This document shows, one piece after another, positions 48,207 to 59,856 of a stretch of 64,000 nucleotides of DNA (within the stretch, counting starts at the first letter, position 1; each line of letters opens with the position of its first letter). The position numbers and the translations under genes were made by a program. The stretch comes from Liolophura sinensis (lineage: Eukaryota > Mollusca > Polyplacophora > Chitonida > Chitonidae), in assembly GCF_032854445.1 (NCBI RefSeq), contig NC_088301.1, positions 39,975,187 to 40,039,186 of the forward strand. Direction: 5' to 3'. The notes beneath the pieces are model-generated. The model had not been told where the DNA came from. It ran no database searches and worked only from the letters and a program-made list of their open reading frames with translations.

Positions 48207-50915
48207 TCAATTTCCGCCAAAAGAGGTGCTCGTTTTCGAGAGTTCTCCGACAGGACAAAGATGGACTCTTATCGAGCCTTGTGATCCGAAGGTGGTGTTT
48301 GTCCATTTCTCGTACATGCGTTCTTCGAGTTTCTTAAGCTTTCTGACACGAACGTCTTGCTGAGACACTCGCACCAATGTTAGGTGAGGCACGTAATGTT
48401 CCTTCTCACGAACCTGGAATCCTGCTTGAACAAGGCACTGGACGGCGCTGGACAAAAGCTCTAAAAATTGAGGTGGGTAACTTACTCTGGCATAGATGAC
48501 TCGTTCAAAAAATAGTCCAAGGCCTTCTATTTTAATACATTTGTCTTTTGGGCAGATATTTTGAAGCTTGGGCTGTGCATCCGACAGTACTTGCATGGCT
48601 ACTGTTATCTCTTCAGGGGTCTCTAGGCGCAAAGTGCCAAAGGTTATATGTAGATCATTTGACGGAATACAAAAATCTTGAAAAATGGGCTCTTTCTCCC
48701 TGAACATTTGTTGAAAAATATCTACGTTCTTAATCACGTTGGGGTCATTTATTTTGACTGTAAGAAAGTAATTAGAGCGTATTCTATCCGAAAGATTTGT
48801 GGCTTGAAATTGTCTTGTAACCCTTGGTACCTGGGATTCGAATTCCGTCTCCAAATCCGAAAGAGTTTCACTATCAATAACAGAATTATTTACAACAGAG
48901 GACATTCCAAAGTCGATGGACACAGGTGTAATGTAAAACCCATCCTCTCTTCTGTCATCGCCCATCGCACACAGGTGGATCCCATCGATACTTTGTGTGC
49001 CGAAGTAGGTGTCAGTGTGCGCCGCAGAGATGTTGGGATTCACCTTAGATGTTCCTATCAAGCGAGCAGCAGGCCGGGACACCTTCATAATGGTCATGTG
49101 TGGCACGAATTCATATCCATCCTTGTTACTTACACCACCTTCCCACAAACACATCTTCAAATGATCCACGAAGCCCAGAAACTCCGGAGGGTACTGGACT
49201 TTGGCGTAAATAACGCGGTCGTAAAAATTACTCACGCCGTCCAGTTTTAAAGCTTTTCCCTTAGGTGCCATATTAGCCAGTTCCGACTTTGCTTTCTGGA
49301 GGATTTGAACAGCGTTTTTTACGTTTTCATCCGTATCAAGGCGAATAACACACAACGTAACGTGCAAAGAAGAATTTGGTATACAGCAGTCACCATAGCG
49401 AGGTTCAGCCTTCAGAATGGCATTGCGGACCTTTTCTACGTTCTTGATAATTTCTTGATCCGTAATCCTGAGAGCTAAGAAGTAGTTAGGACGGAGTTTG
49501 TCCTCCCAAAATTCCTTCTCAGTGTTAGTAAGAGTCTTCAATGTGTCACTCACGTCCTGTTCATTCTCATCTTCATCAACATACGGTTTGTCAATGGCGC
49601 CAATGGTTATTTGAATGCCATCGTCATCGCTATCATCATCCGAATCGTCAGTTTCAGTAACTTCCAAGTTGCTCTCAACATCAGCATTCTCGTCACACTC
49701 TGTCTGTTCGACTCTTCTCTGCGTTTCGTACTGTTCCATTGCGTCCGTTATGGTCATGTTACTTCCTGTTGACCCAAATACGTTGTCCATCCTCTTGTCT
49801 TTGTCCCATACCTTTAAGTCTTTGTACTTGAAGTAATGAATCCTGTGCTTTGGAATCGCGAGCACCGTATAGTCTACAGATGCCAAATCTTCCCACGAAA
49901 ACGCTGAAAAGTTTTTCTCCACCATGCCTACAAATCGGTCCATGTATCCTACAGTGAATTGGTCGCTAGGCAAACTTTCATCCCACAGTATACGAGAAAT
50001 CACATCACCAGCTGTTTTCATAGATACCTTCTTCTCTTCAACTTCGTCTTCATAGTGTTTCTTCTTGGGTCGGTTTTTCTTCTTTCCTCTTGGTTTTTGT
50101 TTATTCAGATATTTGTCCTGTGTCTGAACGTCTAGTTCCATCACGTCTATCTGCTCTATAGCATAGTTTACAAGCTTTTCTATCATTGGCAATCCCACAC
50201 AATCATGTGACTTACACACAAGCTGATTGGCTAACTCTTCAGCACCATCAGCCTTGTTGCCAAATTTTACAAATATATTAGGTGGATCTTTAGGGTAAAG
50301 CTCTGTGAAGAAATAAAAATGAAGTGATTCGGAAAAACCAAACAATGCACAAATGCAATCAATTTTCACTAGGCCAGAAAGAAACTTGAATAGGGTAATA
50401 TATTCCAGAAATCCTTGGGCAAAATCTGACTTTGGCACATTTTGTCATGTTTAACATTTATTACTTGGTACATTAGCTATGCTATAAATCTTTGTCACAT
50501 TTTGTAACTTTGCTATAGGCTCAGTGAAGCCTAACATTCTCTAAATACACTAACCATGTACATGTATTTGTATATTTTTAAATTTAAATTAATACAGACA
50601 GTTTTTATGCTGAAAGTAATAATTACTTAAATCATAACTTTCCTAAATTCAAGCATTTCCAAACTTAAAATTCTCTTGATGACAGGTAAGGACCATAAGA
50701 CCATTTTTTGAAGTGAACACAACTAAAAACATGGAGTGGAACAAACCTGTCAACTGGAATTTGATGTTGACATCAAGTCCTTCTGGATGGACATTGACAA
50801 CATAAATAAACTCTCCCAGGTTTTTTATCACTCGTATTTGATCTGGAAATGTTTCCTTTAACTTCACGATTTCTGCTTCTTGAGCCTCTGTATTTGATGA
50901 ATATGTAGCCGCCAT
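48207..50915 (-). CDS. LENG9-like: RWD - MJ1316 - tandem 2H phosphoesterase protein (LENG9/AKAP7-like), two coding exons
   Basis: Coding exons are 50915-50747 and 50302-48207, joined across a 444-bp intron (donor ACAG|GTTTGT, acceptor TTCTTCACAG|AG), giving 754 residues. ATG 50915 has A at -3, G at +4 and an in-frame TAG ten codons upstream. Seen in order: an RWD domain (about 10-112; the splice restores its YPKDPP turn at 59-64); a Lys-rich linker (about 123-139); an MJ1316/DUF504 domain (about 149-235; motifs SRILWD, VGYMDRF, HRIHYF, VWDKDKRMD); an acidic stretch (about 258-290); 2H domain A (about 327-503; HVT 370-372, HMT 458-460); 2H domain B (about 564-741; HIT 608-610, HLT 696-698). 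Known: 2H enzymes act on 2',3'-cyclic phosphate or 2'-5' bonds; MJ1316 is predicted to bind cyclic-phosphate RNA ends; human LENG9 joins MJ1316 to one 2H domain. Inferred: an RNA-end or 2'-5' oligoadenylate processing factor, with RWD as a protein-binding module. The substrate is unknown. No clear poly(A) signal was seen downstream. Confidence 0.93.
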
Positions 50916-50987: not shown

Positions 50988-52420
50988 CTGTAAATATAGA
51001 ATGTATTAAACAGTTAAATATACATTTATTTGACAGCACAGCTCTTCCAACAAAAATGAAGTAGTGTCATATGCTGCAAACTACATCTTCTGCAGGTAAA
51101 TGCCTGATTTTTTTTTTTACAGCAATGTATACATGTATTTATTTTGCAGCCTACATAGCTTACTTGTATGAAAATAATTTATAACTCAGCCACAACAATA
51201 CAGGCAGTGTTAACATTTGCAAGGTTCAATTTGTGTCCCATTATACATGTGGCATTTATTACAGTCAGACACCCATTCAAATATTACATAACAAGTATCG
51301 TTGTTGCCATCATATATAAATAACTATGATTCATAGAGAATTGAAATCATATTTTATGTTTATGAGTGAACAAGCTTCACATAAAGGGTTTTCCATAATG
51401 CACTGGCACATATTTACGGCTGTAGATTGACAATTATTCTTCAGTTTTAACTGGTTTCCATGCCGTCTTTAGTCATATACAGAACAGCCCATAGAAGAGT
51501 ATAGCACAAACCCGTGTAGCTTGTTATTCACGGTAGAAATGTCAATAAATATAGACATAAAAAAGAAATCATTCACCTATTGCTTAGTTCGTATAACGTA
51601 AAATATATGGTCAATGAAATTTATCGCATATCGGTTAACACCACAGGCGGACCTAACCTAAAACGTAAACATTAACAGCAGAGATAGGCATGTAACACTG
51701 CTGTAGAAAACATGCCCAAGCACATAACCCCTTAACTCTGCAAGTAAACGGTGACAGTGCTACACGCATGAAGTAAATGGTGACAGTGCTACACGGACCA
51801 TGGTGTTAGTACATGGGTAGTCATGTTAGGCCTGTAATTACTAGATGAAAATATACCGGTACAGCCTTAGCTTCTGCGTGTGGGTAGAAAATAGAACATA
51901 TTCTAGCTCAATGGCTGTTCTAACTACTCACAAATCTTCCAATGACCCTCCAGTTCAGTAACCGTGTTGATGGCAGAACAGCGGTGTGTTGTGTTTTATG
52001 TGGCCAGTGAATGATAATATCGTTAATTCGAACGTTGCAACATAATCAGACATAGTTTACAATATGTGGTGCAAGCCTTGCTGGCTAAAAATAGATACCG
52101 GTGATTCCCTGTACGGGTAAACCATTTCACCACTGTAGGTAACATTGTTGTCTCTTGTGGTGAAAGAATACATCTGCTGTGGAAGTGGAGCATAAAGTAA
52201 GGCATGGAAAATAAAATCATTCAAAACTGGTCTCTTGTTTGCGCAAAAAAAAAATCGGGTCAACCCATAGGGTGGGTTACATAAACAGAATACTACACTA
52301 CGTTTCACCCCTCGTAGACTAATAAGCAACCGGTCCACGAGAGCTCCAACGAAGGGGGATAACCCCTTCAATCAAACTGTCTTTTTTGCCACGCCCCTCT
52401 CCCCAAGTCGTTCTCAGTAC
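50988..52420. other. 5' flank or upstream intron of the RWD-MJ1316-2H gene
   Basis: No coding sequence. It holds the 29-bp tandem duplication and probably the undetermined transcription start of the minus-strand gene. It lies between divergently transcribed genes. Confidence 0.5.
51742..51799. repeat. two-copy 29-bp tandem duplication
   Basis: AAGTAAACGGTGACAGTGCT (51742) and AAGTAAATGGTGACAGTGCT (51771) begin two adjacent 29-bp units. They lie upstream of the RWD-MJ1316-2H gene, so they may be in its 5' intron or promoter. Confidence 0.8.
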
Positions 52421-55373: not shown

Positions 55374-55425
<52 letters not shown>

Positions 55426-58400
55426 GCTTGTATCATCGTATGCTAGCTCTTTGACATACGTTTTGTGATATATAACACATATATATTAGCCACCGTTTGC
55501 CACCGTTTGTTTTTTTTTCTCGATATCCACACATTTAGGCGTCCTATATACCGATATCCAGAATCCATGCAATCCATGTGAATTCATGCTCAGCAGTTCC
55601 ATCCTTAAATTAAATATGTTCAGATATTTAACTTAAACATATAGCCGGTGGTGGACACTGAATGTAATTTGTGTTCTGAAGGTTGTCTTGGACATTGAGG
55701 GATTTTAGAGTGAAACAAACGATTAAGTGCTAACAGTTGCGAAAATGAATATTCTAGATGCACTACTGTTTATAGCTCTTCAACTATTAAAATGCTGATT
55801 GAATGAGATCCCACAAAGAAAGCCAACATCCGGAACGAGGAATTATATGGTGGATTAAGGGTTACCTTGTATGGAACAACACTGTTAACAGCAATACAGA
55901 CTGAGGTGTATAGCCATACCATGGACATGATTTCAAACGTTTGCTTTCCTTCAACGGCTGGCCCTTGTTTCTTTGTAGTGTTCATCAAATGCTCGATGGT
56001 TGCGCTGCTAAGTCAACCGCCAAATTTCACTAGCTTTGAATGAATGAATGACTATGGATTAACGCCACATCGGCAATATTTCAGGCACATCGTGGCGATC
56101 ACTAGCTTTGACACTGCAGCTCTCCGCGCATCAGCCAAAAGGTAGGAAACAGTGAGTTGTTCGAGGTTAATCTCGGTTTCTAAATGGAAGATTAATACTG
56201 TATAGTTTTGCCATTAAATATATGCCTATGCACTGACATATTACAATGTAACATTTTGGACAGTTTATTCCCTTTACAGCTACTTCTTTCTGGGATATTA
56301 AACCTGTACTTGTGTGCAGTTGATTTGGAGCCGTACTCGTCCAGCAGTAAATCTCTTGTTTTAAAGGTAAGGTGAACAGAAAATTGCTTGTATTTCCGTT
56401 TCAAAATATCCATCATTTTCTATACAATACTTATAATCTGTCAATCAAATCCTGCTGTTATGGAATATCTATTAATTTAGTTTTTGAGTCGTTCTATAAA
56501 ACTTCAGATTGCATGATATACAGTCATGCCTGGGACCAATATAACAGCTGTTATATTAGTGCTAGGTCATTCTCACTACACGCCAGGTACACATATGCAC
56601 GAGTATAAGATTGTTTTATGCAGGGATCGATGTTTTTGCAGGGATCCAGGCTGACTATAAAACTCTAAATATTAAACCGGCCCCGTTAGCGCAGTTGGTA
56701 GAGCGTCCGCTTCGGGAGCATGCAATATATCCTGAGTCGAGACACACCTAAGACCTTAAAAGAGGAATTTGTAACCGCCTTGCATGGCGTTCAGCATGAA
56801 AGAGATAGTGCTACGCCCTGTTGACCCATATCAGTATAATGGCGTGGCGACTTACTTCCACTTGACAAGCCTTGGATGACCAACGTTGTTCGGTACAAGA
56901 TACGAGTGAGGAATCGTTGTTTCAAAAAATACAAACGGACTAAGTCCGATGGGGATAAGTTTCGATATTATATATCTTGAAGGGAGGCCAATAATGCTAA
57001 ACGTCAAGAAATACTGCGTTACTCCAGGATCGAAAGCAAAACCGCCTATTCCTCCTCTCTTGCTGTCAATGGCAAAAACGTGTCAAATGACGTTGAAAAG
57101 GCGTACCTGTCTTACCACCTTTTACGTATGTTACAGAATCATGTCTCAGTTATATACAGACCTGTGAAAATGAGATTAAACATTCCCTTGAGGCTCTGAA
57201 TACACGGAAAGCCTCAGGTACTGATGGTATAAACAACTTCATGCTTAAAAATTCTGCTGATTGTATTGCAGCTTCCGTAACGATTCTTTTTAACTATTCC
57301 TTACGAACAGCTGTCTTTCCAGCAGCATGGAAGCTCTCTCAAGTCTGCCCTGTATTTAAAAAAGAAGACAGACATGACGTTTTTAAGTATCGACCGGTGT
57401 CCCTTCAACCCTCTCTTTCTAAGGTCTTGGAGAAGGTCGTGTATTATTAACATCTGTATGAGTATTGCATGTCAAATAATCTTCTTATATCACAAAACTC
57501 TGGATTTTAAACGTGGGGATTCGACTGTATGCCAGCTTGCAAAAATTGTTCATGACATATACAAAAGTCTTGACAGTGGAAATGACTCCTGTTTACTACT
57601 TTTAGGTGGCAGTAAGGCATCTGATAAAGTCTGGCATGATGGTCTCCTGTTTAAGTTAGAGCAGTTGGGTATTGAAGATCCTCTACTTGCGGGGTTAAAA
57701 GATTATTTGTGTGACAGAAAAATTAAGGTTTGCCTTAACGGCACTGAGTTCGAAACTTATCCAATATATGCTGGCGTCCCACAAGGCTCTGTATTGGGCC
57801 CACTTCTCTTCTTAACTTTTGTCAATGATATTAGTATGAATATTGAATGTAATATTAACATATCTGCAGATGACACATCCTTGTCTGAAGAAATTTTAGA
57901 CTTAGCAACATCTGAGGCTAAACTTAATCGTGATCTTGAACGTCTATCCAACTGGGCTAGTCAATGGCTTGTGTCATTTAATGCTACCAAAACTGATCTC
58001 TTAATATCCTCTTAATAACCTTCCAGCCGAGATTGTATTTAGATGGTGTAGATGTGAAGAGCATTCCGTCCCATAAACATCTCGGAATTATTCTGCAACA
58101 CAATGGTAAATGGAATGAGCATGTAAGAGCTATAGTTAAGAAAAGTAATATGAAATTGTGTATCATTAGTGGGGCCAGGCGAACACTTACTAGAAAGTGT
58201 ATGATCACACTGTACTTTGGCTTGATAAGGTCCTCTATTGAATGTGGAGATTTTCTATTTGACAACTGCAGCGTTTCAATATCCAACTAATTGTAAAGTG
58301 TTCAACGCCGAGCAGCATTGTTATGTACAGGAGGCTTACGTCGAACTTCATACAAATCTCTTTTAAACGAACTAAAATGGAACCCTTATACAGTCGGCGT

Positions 58401-59856
58401 AGATCCAAGCGCATTCTGTTCTTTCATAAAATCGTCAATGGGCTCTCTCCTCCATACCTAATTACCTTACTAACTCAAAGGTATAACAGCGAAACAAATG
58501 CCTACAATCTTATAAATAGACATCACTTTCGATTATTTAAATGCCGAATTCAGATTTTCTCTTCTTCCTTCTTTTCCAAGACTACCAAAGAATGGAATTC
58601 ATTGTCTGTTCATATCCAAAAATCTCCACTGGAAACAGTTAAGAACTTTTTGTATTCTCAAGACAGTATTAACCGTGATCTAACATGTGAGTATAATTCA
58701 TTTGACACCTTTTCCTCTATTGTGCTCTGAGAATGAGAATGGGACTGAGTGCTCTTCACGGTGACCTCTTTAAATATAACATTATCGACGTTCAGTCATG
58801 TAGTAAATGTAAACATAAATGTGAAAATGCATTTCATTATTTCCTTGACTGCCCTGCCTATGCCACTCATAGAAAGCACATGCTAAAAAGTATCTTTAAG
58901 AATTAAATCTCCTGGACTTCACCCTTCTGTATTTTTGACTAGTTGTTCTAAACACATTTGTACTTTACTCTTATTTGGTTCACCTGAACTAAGCGTGAAT
59001 AATAATCAGTTGTTCTTAAAATCTGTACATAATTTTATAATCATGCCCAATAGATTCACCATCCAAGCCCAGCAGAAATATGATTTGATAATGACCTTTC
59101 TTTGTTCCCATCACCTTATTCTGTACATGTGCATGTCATTTGTTCTCTTTGTTTTCTATGTTATTTTATGTATATACGCTGATTTTATGTTGAGGAGCCC
59201 CTCGTGGCTAAAGAGCTGTGGGAAATCCTCAATAAACAAATAAAGAATTACAATTACTTGCCTTCGGTAAGGCTTCCCAGTGAAGCAGCACTAGATAAAA
59301 GAGCTGTGGAAATCCGTCCTGCAACAAGGAGGCACATTACATGCACTCTAAGGTTTCCTTCGTCGTCATATGACTGAAAAATTGTTAAGTACGACGTTAA
59401 ACCCCAAGCACTCACTCACTCTAAATATTTGAACTGTACAATGTTTGCAGACCTAATGTTTTGCAGGTCTAAAGGGTGTTTTTCTTTTCGAAATAGGTGT
59501 AACCATTCTGTGAGCGTAAAGTAAAATTGTCTGTTCGGTTCTCTCTTTTGCAGGTCGTTGCAGCTGTCTGCAGCACGGCAACTGTGTTCACATGCCTAAC
59601 GGCTGCGATGTTCCCGGCTATCCTGGCGTCTAGAATCCAGCTTTCCAGCTCATGTGACACAGACAATACAAATTGTAACTGCTCGCTAATGGACGGCAGT
59701 AAAACTGTGATACATACCTACAATATTCAAGGCAGTTGTGATGTACTGATTTCTGAAATCAGTGGCTTGCTAATCGCCTTGAGCTGTTTGTGCATCGCCG
59801 GAAGCTTGTCTTGCCTTTGGTTTGTCATTTTGGTGTGGAAATCACGATACAGCTGA
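54271..59856 (+). CDS. four-transmembrane protein, ENTREP/FAM189- or MS4A-like, three exons
   Basis: I assembled this from three exons, all phase 0: 54271-54618 (donor ATC|GTGAGT), 56280-56366 (acceptor CCCTTTACAG|CTA, donor AAG|GTAAGG) and 59554-59856 (acceptor CTCTTTTGCAG|GTC, stop TGA). The protein is 245 residues: a Ser-rich cytoplasmic-looking N-terminus (1-76), TM1 (about 77-98), a short loop ending TPYWAGVI, TM2 (about 111-130, crossing the exon 1/2 junction), TM3 (about 144-169), an extracellular loop with four Cys (179, 186, 188, 207), and TM4 (about 209-241) with a five-residue tail. The short TM1-TM2 loop with a W-x-G entry to TM2, and the Cys-containing TM3-TM4 loop, match the ENTREP/FAM189 and MS4A tetraspan plan. 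Family membership is inference. ATG 54271 is the first ATG after a candidate acceptor at 54223/54224 (TTTGTTCAG|GG) and an in-frame TGA; the ATG at 54289 is an alternative. Intron 2 carries nested transposons. Confidence 0.72.
55246..55312. repeat. nested short inverted repeats
   Basis: Outer arms CAGTATAAA (55246-55254) and TTTATACTG (55304-55312) enclose inner arms CCTGATATA (55267-55275) and TATATCAGG (55280-55288). A further CCTACA/TGTAGG stem lies at about 55242-55260. The block sits 24 bp before the long TA-core hairpin. No transposon family is recognised. Confidence 0.6.
55336..55465. repeat. perfect 39-bp inverted repeat around a (TA)n core
   Basis: The left arm (55336-55374, CAAAACGTATGTCAAAGAGC...) and the right arm (55427-55465) are exact reverse complements. 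They are separated by a pure TA tract (55375-55424, 25 units) plus CG. The whole 130-bp block can fold into one long hairpin or extrude a cruciform. Complementarity stops abruptly outside the arms. It lies in intron 1 of the tetraspan gene. Confidence 0.95.
56027..56111 (-). mobile_element. 59-bp SINE tail fragment flanked by a perfect 13-bp target duplication
   Basis: The core 56040-56098, read on the minus strand, matches the 3' end of the split SINE: CTGAAATATTG, then GGCGTTAATCC, then TCATTCATTCAT in place of CACTCACTCACT. TCACTAGCTTTGA is repeated exactly at 56027-56039 and 56099-56111. It looks like a severely 5'-truncated retroposed copy in intron 1 of the tetraspan gene. Confidence 0.75.
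56858..59253 (+). mobile_element. 5'-truncated, inactivated non-LTR retrotransposon (LINE), jockey/CR1-like
   Basis: The element begins in the linker before the reverse transcriptase (DKPWMTN... from 56863) and runs through RT and the C-terminal region to an A-rich end (AATAAACAAATAAAG). The reading frame is broken several times: an in-frame TGA follows YYIS near 56980, frames change near 57,450 and 57,500, and stops occur at about 58,013 and 58,288. The RT motif AGVPQGSVLGP is present at about 57768-57800. The catalytic box reads SADD rather than YADD (57863-57874), and the first catalytic Asp region reads LGGSKASDKVWH, with Gly where Asp is expected. A Cys/His segment ending FLDCP lies at about 58797-58855. 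TTACTT at 56852-56857 and at 59254-59259 is a plausible short target duplication. Superfamily placement is tentative. Confidence 0.88.
57159..58730 (+). pseudogene. LINE ORF2 remnant: reverse transcriptase and C-terminal region, frameshifted
   Basis: Three main open pieces can be read. 57159-57450 holds the RT fingers, including KASGTDGINN and the WKLSQVCPVFKK segment. 57498-58015 holds the RT palm, with the altered first Asp and SADD. 58025-58290 together with 58323-58730 holds the thumb and C-terminal part. Shifts and stops separate them, so no functional polymerase can be made. The endonuclease region is absent because of the 5' truncation. Confidence 0.85.

Follow-up and report, generated by a model that had tools for sequence, protein, structure and literature searches.

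An RWD-MJ1316-2H-2H protein of the chiton Liolophura sinensis that looks like a doubled relative of vertebrate LENG9

A gene of the chiton Liolophura sinensis encodes a 754-residue protein that joins an RWD domain, an MJ1316 domain and two AKAP7-type 2H phosphoesterase domains and that appears, from this composition, to be a doubled relative of LENG9, a vertebrate protein on which little work has been done. Vertebrate LENG9 has one AKAP7-type 2H domain. It has a CCCH finger (PMC2478707, PMC9635633) and is described with CCCH and MJ1316 domains, and the chicken LENG9L likewise contains an MJ1316 domain (PMC9635633). The best reading of the chiton protein, judged by its domains, is a LENG9-type protein with an RWD domain in place of the vertebrate CCCH finger and with the 2H domain doubled. 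With moderate confidence, we propose that it is an RNA 3'-end processing factor of the LENG9 type with a duplicated catalytic domain, the activity being a predicted one. The architecture may already appear in Burroughs and Aravind 2016 or, under the LENG9 name, in public databases; judged by titles and the beginnings of abstracts, none of the matches listed in a full-text search was a functional study of LENG9 or MJ1316.

Results

Gene structure and domain architecture

The gene lies on the minus strand of the window, by which we mean the whole stretch of 64,000 nucleotides that was analyzed (NC_088301.1, positions 39,975,187 to 40,039,186), and positions are counted from its first letter. The gene model, built from the sequence, joins exons 50915-50747 and 50302-48207 by GT-AG splicing into a coding sequence of 2265 nt with a single terminal stop, and bears out the coordinates, strand and 754-residue length given in a preliminary description of this DNA. 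The start ATG is at 50915 in the context AAAAGTATGG, the donor of exon 1 reads ACAG/GTTTG and the acceptor of exon 2 reads TTCTTCACAG/AG. Domains were searched for with Pfam in the spliced 754-residue protein, applying the curated cut-offs, and the features are as follows.

50747..50915, minus strand: exon 1, residues 1-56 plus one base, with the start codon and the first half of the RWD domain
50303..50746, minus strand: intron of 444 bases, GT...TTCTTCACAG, with splice sites in the sequence and stops in the genomic reading
48207..50302, minus strand: exon 2, with the remaining RWD, MJ1316, acidic linker, 2H1 and 2H2; stop codon 48209-48207
50151..50888, minus strand: RWD domain, residues 10-107, spanning the intron (PF05773, 28.2 bits, cut-off 22.8, E 2.2e-6)
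49800..50021, minus strand: MJ1316 domain, residues 151-224 (PF04457, 85.8 bits, cut-off 26.3, E 3.4e-24)
49554..49676, minus strand: acidic low-complexity linker, residues 266-306, read from the sequence
48909..49496, minus strand: 2H1, AKAP7-type 2H phosphoesterase domain, residues 326-521, motifs HVT at 370 and HMT at 458
48210..48782, minus strand: 2H2, AKAP7-type 2H domain, residues 564-754, motifs HIT at 608 and HLT at 696

The preliminary description had placed all four domains in one protein and had named a failure of profile searches to find RWD or MJ1316 as one outcome that would speak against it. Both domains were found, and each domain of the architecture scored above its curated cut-off, AKAP7_NLS matching the spliced protein in two stretches with 243.8 bits in all (cut-off 24.4). 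A stop-free frame of 745 codons covers exon 2; together with the domain E-values, this excludes chance.

The RWD domain was detected only once the exons were joined, and Pfam gave no match to it when either exon was scanned by itself or when exon 1 was extended into the intron. The domain itself thus crosses the splice junction, and its completion by splicing is therefore the best available support, from sequence, for exons 1 and 2 forming one gene. That the two exons belong to separate genes was rejected, as the RWD is visible only across the junction.

By sequence, MJ1316 had no relative among solved structures (best E 0.65). Its model had a pLDDT of 78 and gave no Foldseek match to known folds at E 0.001 or better, the best Z score being 3.5 (3r1m). 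The AlphaFold model of the 2H pair, with a pLDDT of 37, was unusable.

Several other features were seen elsewhere in the window. A pair of nearly identical direct repeats (25 bases each, 29 bases apart) lies upstream of the gene at 51742-51795. Positions 55375-55424 are a perfect (TA)25 dinucleotide run. On the plus strand, broken frames with reverse-transcriptase-like stretches (GVPQGSVLGPLLFL, SADDTSL) at 57097-58730 look by eye like a LINE remnant, and an open frame of 117 residues with hydrophobic stretches at 59503-59856 has by eye the look of an exon from a multi-pass membrane protein.

The 2H domains and their predicted substrate

Scanned singly, 2H1 matched PF10469 with 139.0 bits over profile positions 1-208 of 208 and 2H2 with 112.9 bits over positions 2-195 of 208. 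Against the solved AKAP7 structure 5jj2, the E-values were 5.6e-21 and 2.2e-17, respectively. Each copy is 21-29% identical to the solved AKAP7/AKAP18 chains 5jj2 and 2vfk, and 29-31% identical to a partial AKAP7-like row of the same genome. Both copies keep both H-x-T motifs, just as the preliminary description had it, and the motifs are spaced by 88 residues in each (370/458 and 608/696), in line with the spacing of about 80 residues between the two H-x-S/T motifs of the 2H superfamily.

When the 2',5'-phosphoesterase AKAP7 cuts a 2'-5' bond, a 2',3'-cyclic phosphate is left behind (PMC8406329), so that the product of one 2H reaction is the predicted ligand of the MJ1316 domain. The latter is said, with reference to Burroughs and Aravind 2016, to recognize 2'-3' cyclic ends and to occur in diverse fusions with RNA-repair domains in eukaryotes (PMC6514570); as far as the cited text goes, this recognition is a computational prediction. 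In the mechanism that we propose, the RWD domain would dock the protein on a partner and MJ1316 would hold the 3' end of an RNA or oligonucleotide carrying a 2',3'-cyclic (or opened) phosphate. The 2H sites would then hydrolyze the cyclic-phosphate end, or the 2'-5' bond giving rise to such an end, and the hydrolyzed end would be free for trimming, tailing or re-joining. The preliminary description had likewise proposed a role in RNA-end or 2'-5' oligonucleotide processing: this is still the best reading, and the bacterial proteins described below strengthen it, but they leave the exact substrate unsupported. Its suggestion that the protein might process both ends of a break found no support, since the 2H chemistry described in the papers cited here is directed at 2',3'-cyclic phosphates as well as 2'-5' bonds, and the Pfam list for the 754-residue protein contains no kinase or ligase domain.

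Both copies also match TIGR02258, the 2',3'-cyclic phosphodiesterase model (ThpR/LigT), with single-domain scores of 41.1 bits for 2H1 (E 1.6e-10) and 46.2 bits for 2H2 (E 4.7e-12), neither of which passes the cut-off of 65.7. Three AKAP7 rows scored 35.0, 29.5 and 31.7 bits (the last row partial), all likewise below 65.7. Whole exon 2 reached 80.1 bits, over the cut-off only as the sum of two domains, and its identification as a ThpR enzyme by the whole-protein score was rejected because that score sums two sub-threshold domains.

We searched the L. sinensis genome (609 Mb, 632 contigs) for other loci with these domains. The MJ1316 profile matches once, in the RWD-MJ1316-2H-2H gene only. AKAP7_NLS matches six times: besides the two domains described here, there is an exon belonging to an AKAP7-like gene, and another locus, read as ASCC1, contributes three pieces, the last locus being named from KH-like plus 2H frames and not by profile. 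The AKAP7-like exon is 48% identical to chain 5jj2 over 52 residues, and HLTL and HITL motifs occur in frames of the gene to which it belongs. That our gene is simply AKAP7 or ASCC1 was rejected, as both are found at other loci. The RtcB and CNPase profiles both match in the genome, which thus encodes other cyclic-phosphate enzymes.

The AKAP7 family is the best Pfam match of both 2H copies, and this would also suit a 2'-5' phosphodiesterase removing 2-5A-like messengers or other 2'-5' oligonucleotides and so switching innate immunity off, in which case RWD and MJ1316 would serve localization or product handling. We regard such a role as possible but rather unlikely. A transcript called Leng9 features in a study of animal-bacterial symbiosis, the animal host of which we take to be a squid. 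It was reported there together with innate-immune genes (PMC5385879), in the mouse, Leng9 shows enrichment in organs related to macrophages and goes up when macrophages are activated by LPS (PMC2478707), and mouse AKAP7 and its viral relatives cleave 2'-5' and not 3'-5' bonds (PMC8406329). The genome, however, already has an AKAP7-like gene; OAS1_C matched nowhere in it, though the control likewise matched nowhere, so that absence cannot be concluded, and the one match to the KEN domain is partial and fits RNase L and IRE1 alike.

Duplication and unequal divergence of the 2H copies

The two copies are 37% identical over 180 gap-free residues (150 bits). In a six-row tree, they formed a sister pair (support 98/98) to the exclusion of the two solved AKAP7 rows. 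A long-branch warning was issued for this tree, the row for ASCC1 being very long, and no firm place was obtained for the partial AKAP7-like row from the same genome. By this tree, the copies are sisters within the AKAP7 family, that is, a tandem duplication, and 2H2 is the one that changed faster, its branch measuring 2.02 in comparison with 0.37 for 2H1.

The positions kept tell of a similar inequality. AKAP7-conserved positions were defined as those common to three AKAP7 rows, leaving ASCC1 out; of these 53, 30 are kept in 2H1 and 19 in 2H2. Among the 30 positions common to AKAP7 and 2H1, 2H2 keeps 16 and has changed 14, and it is without the C-terminal GYYH strand, the last strand of AKAP7. 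All four catalytic residues of the motifs (two H, two T) are among the 16 kept positions, which is suggestive of a maintained site. If 16 of 30 positions were kept at random, all four catalytic ones would be kept by luck with a chance of ~0.07, so the retention is no proof. Nor does it prove activity, given that in viral 2H relatives the determinants of activity are reported to lie outside the catalytic motifs (PMC10835031). The earlier view that two active sites seem to be maintained stands in that every H and T of the motifs is kept in both copies, but it needs the qualification that the copies are unequally intact.

The ancestral AKAP7-like activity probably persists in the slower 2H1, and the faster 2H2 has probably specialized or become partly relaxed. 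A division of labour between the two sites, which the preliminary description had raised for 2',3'-cyclic phosphate and 2'-5' substrates, is possible: the unequal divergence and the slightly higher TIGR02258 score of 2H2 hint at it, and they go no further than a hint.

The same divergence fits a sensor or scaffold, in which MJ1316 and degenerate 2H domains would bind cyclic-phosphate RNA without turnover and the RWD would signal, 2H2 being at least catalytically weak. The few AKAP7-conserved positions of 2H2, its longer branch and its missing last strand are as such a protein would have them, but with the H and T motif residues all present in both copies and 2H1 matching the profile over its full length, we judge it unlikely.

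MJ1316 and 2H domains in bacteria

Searched alone against plasmids with tblastn, the animal MJ1316 domain matched three records, one of them convincingly (E 1e-7, from Calothrix) and two weakly (E 0.07). The Calothrix plasmid protein (L003:7995-10970) is annotated as an RNA 2',3'-cyclic phosphodiesterase and has the architecture MJ1316-EEP-2H-PAP. Its nucleotidyltransferase part weakly matches a CBASS cyclase model (E 5.9e-8, 32 of 200 bits), and the gene for a dynamin-family GTPase lies nearby, one gene away, on the opposite strand.

When the genomes of two phyla, picked because seed proteins lay there, were surveyed with the MJ1316 Pfam model, the domain was found in 2 of 292 genomes in the phylum of Calothrix and in 3 of 396 in that of Streptomyces, with one seed in each. 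All three non-seed proteins (L033-L035) are MJ1316-EEP-2H-PAP proteins, PAP being the poly(A)-polymerase. A seeded bacterial scan gave 21 loci, of which 20 were scanned, L011 being dropped as 976 of its 989 residues are identical to L010. MJ1316 matched in all 20 proteins, 2H in 17, EEP in 13 and PAP_central in 11, shares that are biased because the seeds were mostly MJ1316-2H proteins. Three of the 20 had no 2H match; the frames read for L012, L018 and L019 are without a complete 2H motif pair. Judged by motifs, Streptomyces has short MJ1316-2H frames of about 270-310 residues. In the alignment, 12 columns are invariant between the animal MJ1316 and the 20 bacterial rows, and the MJ1316 model also matches two archaeal control genomes.

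Searches of mobile elements gave little else. Viral contigs yielded no relatives with the exon-2 protein, the MJ1316 alignment or the 2H alignment, 2H1 matched nothing among plasmids at E 0.01, MJ1316 had three weak matches among phages (best E 0.5) and a PHROGs search with the exon-2 protein found nothing.

ANGEL2, a 2',3'-cyclic phosphatase, belongs to the EEP-type CCR4 family (PMC12265940). Because of this and of the PAP domain in their company, the bacterial MJ1316-EEP-2H-PAP proteins look like tools for cleaning and then extending an RNA 3' end. By analogy, the bacterial coupling of MJ1316 and 2H supports RNA 3'-end healing, though not an exact substrate, for the chiton protein.

The RWD domain and its possible partner

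Compared with three other RWD loci of the same genome, the stretches were too distant to classify the RWD. One other RWD locus (L037, G000 C6:20951345-20951851) has a CCCH-like finger inside the RWD match and looks by eye DHX57-like.

Another reading, quite improbable in our view, is that the protein works where ribosomes stall or collide, opening the 2',3'-cyclic phosphates of the ends made there while its RWD docks on GCN1: such binding is reported for the RWD of GCN2, IMPACT, RWDD1 and RNF14 (PMC10931611), RWDD1 is the sole solved structure that the chiton RWD matched (weakly, E 0.063), and Angel1, the Angel2 paralogue with weaker cyclic phosphatase activity, associates with GCN1 and non-stop decay factors (PMC12265940), but other RWD domains work otherwise, RWDD3 with UBC9 (PMC10931611), Angel1 depletion led to no detectable cyclic phosphate on a reporter mRNA (PMC12265940), and no RWD is attributed to vertebrate LENG9 in the consulted text of PMC9635633 and PMC10931611, the latter a review that tabulates human RWD proteins and in whose available text the word LENG9 is absent. 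The facts on GCN1 and Angel1 make this reading testable without showing it.

A more far-reaching possibility, which we think very unlikely, is a two-step chain in which the AKAP7-like 2H1 would cut a 2'-5' bond and leave a 2',3'-cyclic phosphate, MJ1316 would hold the cyclic end, the diverged 2H2 would open it and the RWD would bring the protein to GCN1 on collided ribosomes. Animals would then have, in addition to RTCA, CNP and ANGEL2, a protein dedicated to healing cyclic-phosphate ends.

Discussion

In a review from 2026 on the tRNA ligase complex of animals, RTCA, CNP and ANGEL2 are given as three mammalian enzymes modulating 2',3'-cyclic phosphate ends, and a word search of its available text found mention of neither LENG9 nor MJ1316 (PMC13247085). 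If LENG9-type proteins do act on cyclic ends, they would be a new player in antiviral signalling, in the rescue of ribosomes or in RNA repair. Direct tests are possible with the chiton protein, given its RWD and its doubled 2H, and offer a route to what the LENG9 family does.

Several known systems resemble the RNA 3'-end processing factor that we propose. The bacterial MJ1316-EEP-2H-PAP and MJ1316-2H proteins of cyanobacteria and actinobacteria share with it the combination of MJ1316 and 2H in one polypeptide, but their single 2H matches 2_5_RNA_ligase2 and not AKAP7_NLS, many have EEP and poly(A)-polymerase domains, and no RWD is listed for them. Since the bacterial 2H matches another Pfam family and the domain company differs, we infer that the MJ1316-2H fusion arose independently in bacteria and in the animal gene. 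The RNA 2',3'-cyclic phosphodiesterases ThpR/LigT are alike in that both 2H copies match their model, and unlike in that each copy stays below its curated cut-off.

Two further likenesses are those that the preliminary description had drawn: kinship with AKAP7 is borne out by Pfam and the PDB, and that with LENG9 is drawn from the common MJ1316 and 2H domains and not from a tree. With the 2',5'-phosphoesterase domain in the centre of AKAP7/AKAP18, the chiton protein shares AKAP7_NLS over most of each copy and both H-x-T motifs, whereas its copies stand in tandem and are fused to MJ1316 and RWD, and Pfam lists no PKA-binding module of AKAP7 at E <= 1, a module so short that it can be missed. 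With LENG9, it shares MJ1316 and an AKAP7-type 2H downstream of it. Unlike LENG9, it shows in its 754 residues neither a match to zf-CCCH (E <= 1) nor the pattern C-x(4-20)-C-x(3-8)-C-x(2-4)-H, and it carries an RWD domain and a doubled 2H.
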